43,128 nucleotides of DNA. Origin: Candidatus Rokuibacteriota bacterium. Lineage in GTDB: Bacteria; Methylomirabilota; Methylomirabilia; Rokubacteriales; CSP1-6. Location of the stretch: positions 1-43,128 of the forward strand of contig JACPIQ010000042.1 of the NCBI GenBank assembly GCA_016188005.1, given 5' to 3'. This document shows positions 29,576 through 30,361 of the stretch, piece by piece. Positions within the stretch are counted from its first letter, which is position 1; the number at the start of each line of letters is the position of its first letter. Under the pieces are notes generated by a model. The model did not search any database, was not told the DNA's origin, and was given only the letters and a program-made list of their open reading frames with translations. A program made the translations under genes and the position numbers.

Positions 29576-30193
29576 TCAGCCCTTGAGCGCCTCGTGGACC
29601 CTGCCGACCATCTTGGCGCCGGGGTTGACCAGCGTCTTGTCCCCCTCGTCCTTCCACTTGGACGGACAGGCCTCGTTGGTCTTCTTGGCCATGTAGATGT
29701 TGGCCTTGAACTTCCGCAGCAGCTCGTCGATGTTGCGGCCCATGTTGTAGAAGTTCACCTCGGAGTTGAGCAGCGTACCCTCGGGGTTGATGATGAACGT
29801 CCCCCGGAGCGCCAGCCCCGTGCCCTCGTCGTAGACGCCGAACATCCGCGAGACCTTCCCCGTGGGGTCGGCGCCCATCGGGTACTTGACCTGGGCCAGC
29901 TCCTTCTCGTCCCGCTGCCACGCCAGGTGCACGAACTGGGTGTCCGTGCTCACCGTGACGATATCACACCCCATCCTGACGAACCGCTCGTGCTGCTCTG
30001 CCAGAGCAGCGAACTCGGTCGCTCAGACGAACGTGAAGTCGGCCGGATAGAAGAAGAGGATGGTCCAGCGCTTCTTGGCGAGCTGCTCCGACAGGCTGAG
30101 CTTGCCGAAGTCGCCCCTGGCCGGTTCGTACGTGGTGAGCGAGAAGTCCGGCACCTTCTGGCCGAGCTTGAGTCCCCCATCCATCTCGGACAT
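29576..30193 (-). CDS. Typical 2-Cys peroxiredoxin with in-frame TGA at the peroxidatic position (probable selenoprotein)
   Basis: A 205-aa peroxiredoxin (AhpC/Prx1 type) if the TGA at 30023-30025 is read as selenocysteine. The frame runs unbroken from ATG 30193 (AGGAGG 9 nt upstream) to the stop at 29576-29578. The active-site pattern PxxxTxxC appears as YPADFTFV followed by the TGA and then ATEFAALAEQHERF, so Sec57 takes the place of the peroxidatic Cys. Pro50, Thr54 and Arg130 are present, and Cys176 in NEACPSKW is the resolving cysteine. A stem-loop with the layout of a bacterial SECIS lies 12 nt downstream of the TGA. The protein would reduce peroxides in the cytoplasm. The alternative is a nonsense mutation or sequencing error, but every other position looks conserved. 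Confidence 0.85.
29992..30010 (-). promoter_or_regulatory. Candidate bacterial SECIS stem-loop
   Basis: Read on the minus strand, the TGA (30025-30023) is followed by 12 nt and then GCTGCTCT-GGC-AGAGCAGC: an 8-bp perfect stem with a 3-nt loop whose first bases are G. The apical loop begins 20 nt after the TGA, inside the spacing I recall for bacterial SECIS elements. A lower stem is possible between GACCG near the TGA and CGGTTC after the hairpin, with one bulge. It would be bound by the elongation factor SelB during translation. SelA, SelB, SelD and the Sec tRNA are not in this window. Confidence 0.65.
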
Positions 30194-30361
30194 GCCTTGG
30201 CGCCTCCTGTGCGCGTGGTCGGTTGAGGGGAGCTTCCGGCTCCTGCGACGCCCCATATGCTACTCATCTCCGGCAAGCTCTGCCCGGCGATCTGCGCCGG
30301 GAGCCCCCGGGGCCGGAGGGCTGGGCTATGATGGGTCAGCCCACACGGAGGGGGCGCACCC

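Follow-up and report, generated by a model that had tools for sequence, protein, structure and literature searches.

Selenocysteine (Sec) peroxiredoxins of the PxxxTxxU family have been known since PrxU of Eubacterium acidaminophilum was described and 12 of them had been counted in 2006 (PMC13188914; PMC1794560), in line with the statement in a first-pass annotation of the DNA studied here that such enzymes exist in some bacteria. One catalogue places the Sec peroxiredoxin family under COG1225 (Bcp) (PMC9312934), and, according to a citation in PMC13188914, 63 selenoprotein genes were predicted in a reported Methylomirabilota MAG. The gene described here lies in the window, a stretch of 43,128 nucleotides that makes up contig C42 of a Candidatus Rokuibacteriota genome (5.37 Mb, 98% complete, fragmented, estimated contamination 4.67%). 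Like the PxxxTxxU/PrxU family, its predicted product is a bacterial protein with Sec at the peroxidatic position, encoded by an in-frame UGA with a downstream SECIS, and Cys homologues are widespread. In contrast to the Bcp assignment of that family in PMC9312934, the window protein is of the AhpC type, and the host phyla of its clade are not those reported in PMC1794560. Its score with the PrxU equivalog model of NCBIfam (NF040737), 174.9 bits, lies under the curated cut-off of 270, the relation to PrxU being judged from profile scores alone.

The other close comparison is AhpC itself (TIGR03137; Salmonella PDB 1n8j, 4ma9, 1yf1), with which the window protein shares fold, length, the PxxxTxx(C/U) motif, the arginine and the resolving Cys in CPxKW. 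It differs in carrying predicted Sec for Cys and UATEFAALAE for CPTELxDLA, in scoring 184.8 bits with the AhpC equivalog, under the curated cut-off of 272, and in residing in a genome for which the profile search found no AhpF above cut-off. Sec peroxiredoxins as a kind are already known and the AhpC-type branch is little described; among the open-licence literature, we found no publication on this Sec-AhpC clade. Beyond the first-pass annotation, we describe the SECIS hairpin, its codon constraint, a single Sec clade and an AhpC type that scores under both cut-offs.

A frame with one internal TGA

Translation of the minus strand from the ATG at 30193 to the TGA at 29576 gave 205 codons with a sole internal stop, the TGA of codon 57, which stands in the context YPADFTFV-TGA-ATEF and aligns with the peroxidatic Cys of AhpC-type peroxiredoxins. 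The first-pass annotation had described one minus-strand frame with these limits, interrupted solely by a TGA at the catalytic position of the PxxxTxxC motif, and was exact on both counts. Of the 879 TGA triplets that the window contains over its six frames, only the one at codon 57 has stretches of 40 or more open, coding-like codons on either side. The GC content per codon position of the peroxiredoxin frame amounts to 0.54/0.39/0.93 before the TGA and to 0.58/0.39/0.95 after it. As had been anticipated, ordinary annotation misses the gene: a standard ORF call on this locus recovers only a 132-aa piece that starts at the ATG at 29974 and lacks the active site.

Features of the peroxiredoxin locus (positions in the window)
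Feature	Position	Strand	Basis or detail
AhpC-type peroxiredoxin CDS, 205 residues with predicted Sec57	29576..30193	-	translation; TGA stop 29576-29578
TGA codon 57, read as putative selenocysteine at the peroxidatic position	30023..30025	-	translation and homologue alignment
Shine-Dalgarno AGGAGG, 9 nt before the ATG	30203..30208	-	sequence
Predicted bSECIS hairpin, 8-bp stem GCUGCUCU/AGAGCAGC, loop GGC (30000-30002)	29992..30010	-	20 nt from UGA to loop
Pro50 of PxxxTxxU	30044..30046	-	translation and alignment
Thr54 of PxxxTxxU	30032..30034	-	translation and alignment
Arg130, conserved active-site arginine	29804..29806	-	translation and alignment
Cys176, resolving cysteine, E-A-C-P-S-K-W	29666..29668	-	translation and alignment with AhpC Cys

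In an alignment of 28 sequences, residue 57 was invariant together with Pro50, Thr54, Arg130 and Cys176, the four residues that had been noted earlier as kept. The Pfam AhpC-TSA domain (PF00578) matched the Sec57 peroxiredoxin with 124 bits, the nearest solved structures by sequence were AhpCs of the Salmonella/E. coli type, and Cys176 aligned with the C-terminal resolving Cys of AhpC. As AlphaFold run on the single sequence reached a pLDDT of only 37, the model built from the 28 aligned relatives was used instead (pLDDT 92, monomer); its top match in the PDB was Salmonella AhpC, with TM values of 0.84/0.93 and 40% identity. Since domain, fold match, invariant residues and the alignment of Cys176 agree, the protein is assigned by fold family, on sequence and model, to the AhpC/Prx1 typical 2-Cys type. 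Scores under both NCBIfam cut-offs, for AhpC and for PrxU, were likewise obtained with two Sec relatives and with two Cys relatives from among the nearest.

The SECIS hairpin and its footprint on the protein

A candidate hairpin, GCUGCUCU-GGC-AGAGCAGC, starts 12 nt 3' of the UGA inside the coding sequence, with a folding energy (MFE) of -21.6 kcal/mol and a 3-nt loop whose first two letters are G. In the published model of bacterial SECIS elements, the loop has 3-9 nt and begins with two Gs, the stem has 4-16 bp, the distance between UGA and loop is 16-37 nt and the MFE is -7.5 or below (PMC13188914); the window hairpin fits this model throughout and shows nothing that lies outside it. A scripted test found these constraints satisfied in 24 of 24 Sec genes and in none of 13 Cys genes. 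By itself, the folding energy sets the window hairpin only moderately apart (z -2.1).

Codons +6 to +9 read GCT CTG GCA GAG in all of the 22 distinct Sec genes, although elsewhere in the same genes GCT and GCA account for only 15 and 37, respectively, of 274 Ala codons. With per-gene codon usage, the chance of such a pattern among ten representatives of less than 75% DNA identity is about 1e-29, a figure which assumes that the ten are independent. Across the Sec genes, the stem is 99.4% paired. At stem column 18/32, the U-A pair is replaced twice by C-G and once by G-U, with both sides changed in three sequences: GCT became GCC or GCG on one arm, and CAG (Gln) became CGG (Arg) or CTG (Leu) on the opposite one; in L049, the arm at this column reads TCC. 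As six of the eight pairs never vary, compensation was seen at one stem pair only. The strong evidence for the predicted SECIS is conservation and not folding energy. A possible shared SECIS cassette was considered and rejected: the sequence GCTCTGGCAGAGC occurs twice in the genome, here and at C97:20529, where no fitting TGA stands just 5' of it, and the sequences that follow the TGA in SelD and in the other Prx genes differ.

The constraint on the RNA is visible in the protein. Sec forms read U-A-T-E-F-A-A-L-A-E-Q where Cys forms read C-P-T-E-L-x-D-L-A. Position +6, which is Ala in every Sec form and mostly Asp in Cys forms, falls in the SECIS stem, as does Gln +10, and the latter changes to Arg or Leu in step with the opposite stem base; because the base change at column 18/32 alters Gln to Arg or Leu, the amino acid here appears to follow the RNA. 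Pairing does not account for two further differences that lie beyond the stem, Pro to Ala at +1 and Leu to Phe at +4; at +1 (window positions 30020-30022), 12 of 13 Cys forms have Pro and all Sec forms Ala. Judged from the alignment, the change from CPTELxDLA to UATEFAALAE is partly dictated by the putative RNA hairpin. This makes for an unusually clean comparison between the Cys and the Sec version of AhpC, a textbook enzyme, the footprint of an RNA signal being visible on the protein, and the system could therefore serve as a test bed for what selenium brings to a peroxiredoxin and what a SECIS costs to protein sequence.

Homologues and the selenocysteine machinery

Homologues carrying the TGA were found at 24 loci (22 distinct), and in all 24 it was the sole internal stop, at the codon 57 site. 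Their hosts belong to Methylomirabilota, Nitrospirota and Planctomycetota, plus one MAG labelled Acidobacteriota. In a survey of the phylum, 12 of 95 genomes had a close homologue, each with exactly one stop, a TGA. One homologue of 78% identity (L034), which is the same protein as the L027 one of a same-family genome, is labelled Candidatus Rokuibacteriota and so places the host in that group. The Acidobacteriota-labelled case, on a Terriglobia MAG contig (L043, JAIQEZ010000042.1), encodes a peroxiredoxin of 84% identity that groups with Methylomirabilota, pointing to either transfer or a binning error. In farther relatives, which begin at roughly 60-66% identity in Aquificota, a Myxococcota-placed MAG and Desulfovibrionaceae and extend to ordinary AhpC, the site is TGC or TGT. 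The first-pass annotation had proposed this comparison of Cys and TGA at the site and had named random stops along homologous frames as grounds for refutation; none were seen.

The closest Cys relatives (L045-L053; Aquificota, Desulfovibrionaceae and the Myxococcota-placed MAG) are 51-67% identical to the window protein and share its group with support of 100/100. Unlike it, they have a TGC or TGT codon of their own and the residues PTEL and DLA, and they lack a SECIS. In the tree, the Sec forms lie on one side of a branch with support of 98/90, or of 84/92 when the 12 SECIS-covered residues were masked. As the Sec forms make up a single clade and Cys forms occupy all outer branches, this phylogeny suggests a single Cys-to-Sec change behind the Sec clade, with the tree rooted by midpoint only. 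Beyond the TGA, dN/dS values are well below 1 (0.120/0.518 relative to L026 and 0.096/1.072 relative to L118), and there is purifying selection on both sides of the TGA.

Taken together, these data could be read as one conversion of Cys to Sec in an AhpC-type enzyme, which would have given rise to a Sec-AhpC clade over Methylomirabilota, Nitrospirota and Planctomycetota in which the hairpin dictates residues beside the active site and Pro +1 was lost, perhaps as Sec chemistry no longer needs it. For this joint reading as a whole, we consider the chances of being right or wrong evenly balanced.

The genome carries the machinery that the first-pass annotation had expected elsewhere (selA, selB, selC and selD). 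Contig C4 has, in this order, tRNA-Sec (at C4:43285; Rfam 69.3 bits; SeC with anticodon tca according to ARAGORN), selA and selB, where selA was assigned from its own sequence and its position as the ORF just before selB and not by profile. The selD gene, on C86, has an in-frame TGA of its own (CAGU). Among 11 hosts of Sec forms outside Methylomirabilota, SelB above cut-off was found in 10 and a strong tRNA-Sec in eight. One Nitrospiraceae MAG chromosome (L042, CP070644.1; genome G102) encodes a Sec-AhpC with an intact SECIS and gave neither SelB above cut-off nor a tRNA-Sec match, and two further hosts among these 11 gave no tRNA-Sec match; incompleteness of the MAGs is the likely cause.

Several other genes of this genome have in-frame TGAs. 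The selD gene (L114; G000:C86:102037-102972, minus strand) appears to be a selenoprotein gene, with SYAACAG-U-ASKM and a strong hairpin after the TGA. A Tat-signal, Sec-type FdhA (L124:2944-3898 on G000:C8, just downstream of 90696-91595) contains QSRVUHSATVP, and a thioredoxin-reductase-like gene lies near this formate dehydrogenase alpha gene. Two peroxiredoxin-like genes have TGA at the catalytic position, with DWTPGUST (L004, G000:C8:121669-122043) and DWGSIUTP (L003, G000:C99:27721-28158), bringing the predicted Sec genes of the peroxiredoxin family in the genome to three with the window gene. Judging from this gene content, use of the Sec trait in the genome is clear. In addition, ARAGORN reported a tRNA-Ser (tga) antisense inside selB (L032:9210-9306, minus strand), which is probably a false positive.

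Decoding of UGA57, catalysis and possible reductants

The data are best explained by a working selenoprotein gene that encodes an AhpC/Prx1-type peroxiredoxin with Sec as the predicted peroxidatic residue, a reading we hold with high confidence on the strength of the Sec machinery genes, the conserved sole TGA and the SECIS, and one that agrees with the true selenoprotein proposed in the first-pass annotation. Decoding of the UGA as something other than Sec, be it Trp by code reassignment or Cys via the Sec machinery, is very unlikely, even though sequence by itself does not separate Sec from Cys on tRNA-Sec: the peroxiredoxin gene itself ends in TGA, only one of the 879 TGA triplets in the window looks internal, relatives have Cys and never Trp at the site, and selD as well as selA are present.

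Sec decoding of a UGA is always in competition with termination, and an in-frame ATG stands at codon +17, so that the locus might be thought to yield two proteins, one a 56-aa peptide ending at the UGA and the other a C-terminal fragment of 132 aa made by re-initiation, with the UGA as a regulated switch. This is improbable in the extreme, as the fragment would lack the entire active-site loop, GAGCGGTTCGTCAGG before that ATG offers no convincing ribosome-binding site, and conservation of the SECIS requires Sec decoding. An error of sequencing or assembly, by which TGC or TGT was misread as TGA, might be suspected from the fragmentation and estimated contamination of the assembly; however, such an error is implausible and has hardly any probability left, because the same TGA, together with a hairpin that is absent from Cys forms, recurs in many assemblies that were made independently in different laboratories and represent different phyla. 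A pseudogene, that is, an ordinary Cys peroxiredoxin hit by a nonsense mutation, would account for a frame that looks broken to standard annotation, but this barely credible reading is, as far as sequence can tell, already refuted by conservation, given that 24 of 24 TGA homologues in several phyla share this TGA and no other stop, that dN/dS after it is low with the same coding composition, and that the SECIS is conserved.

The locus is thus best regarded as a well-supported candidate selenoprotein gene from uncultured soil and groundwater lineages, which standard annotation would truncate. In AhpC biochemistry, the peroxidatic residue reduces the peroxide and bonds with the resolving Cys, after which a thiol donor recycles the enzyme. 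For the Sec enzyme, we infer Sec insertion, catalysis and partner by analogy. SelB together with Sec-tRNA-Sec would bind the in-CDS hairpin and the ribosome would decode UGA57 as Sec. Activated by Pro50, Thr54 and Arg130, Sec57 would then become a selenenic acid through attack on H2O2 or on an organic hydroperoxide. Condensation of this acid with Cys176 in the partner subunit would form a selenenylsulfide, which a thioredoxin- or glutaredoxin-like donor may in turn reduce.

No reductant gene was found adjoining the peroxiredoxin gene. A predicted Sec-containing AhpF-N-domain/glutaredoxin-like protein (L125/L131, G000:C102:2185-2844; TTPTUPHC) was considered as a dedicated reductant and rejected. 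Within the phylum, 52 of the 95 genomes have a homologue of it, 51 of them with an in-frame TGA (one with two) and one (G086) with no stop, yet only 6 of the 12 Sec-AhpC genomes are among them, and on these frequencies the two are not associated. Neighbour genes conserved across the whole Sec family were not found, and the CoA-transferase III gene, which comes next downstream, is common to the genus only. Four other loci (L119, L121, L035 and L039) have a Fur/PerR-like gene next to the peroxiredoxin gene or upstream of it, which fits a role in peroxide stress.
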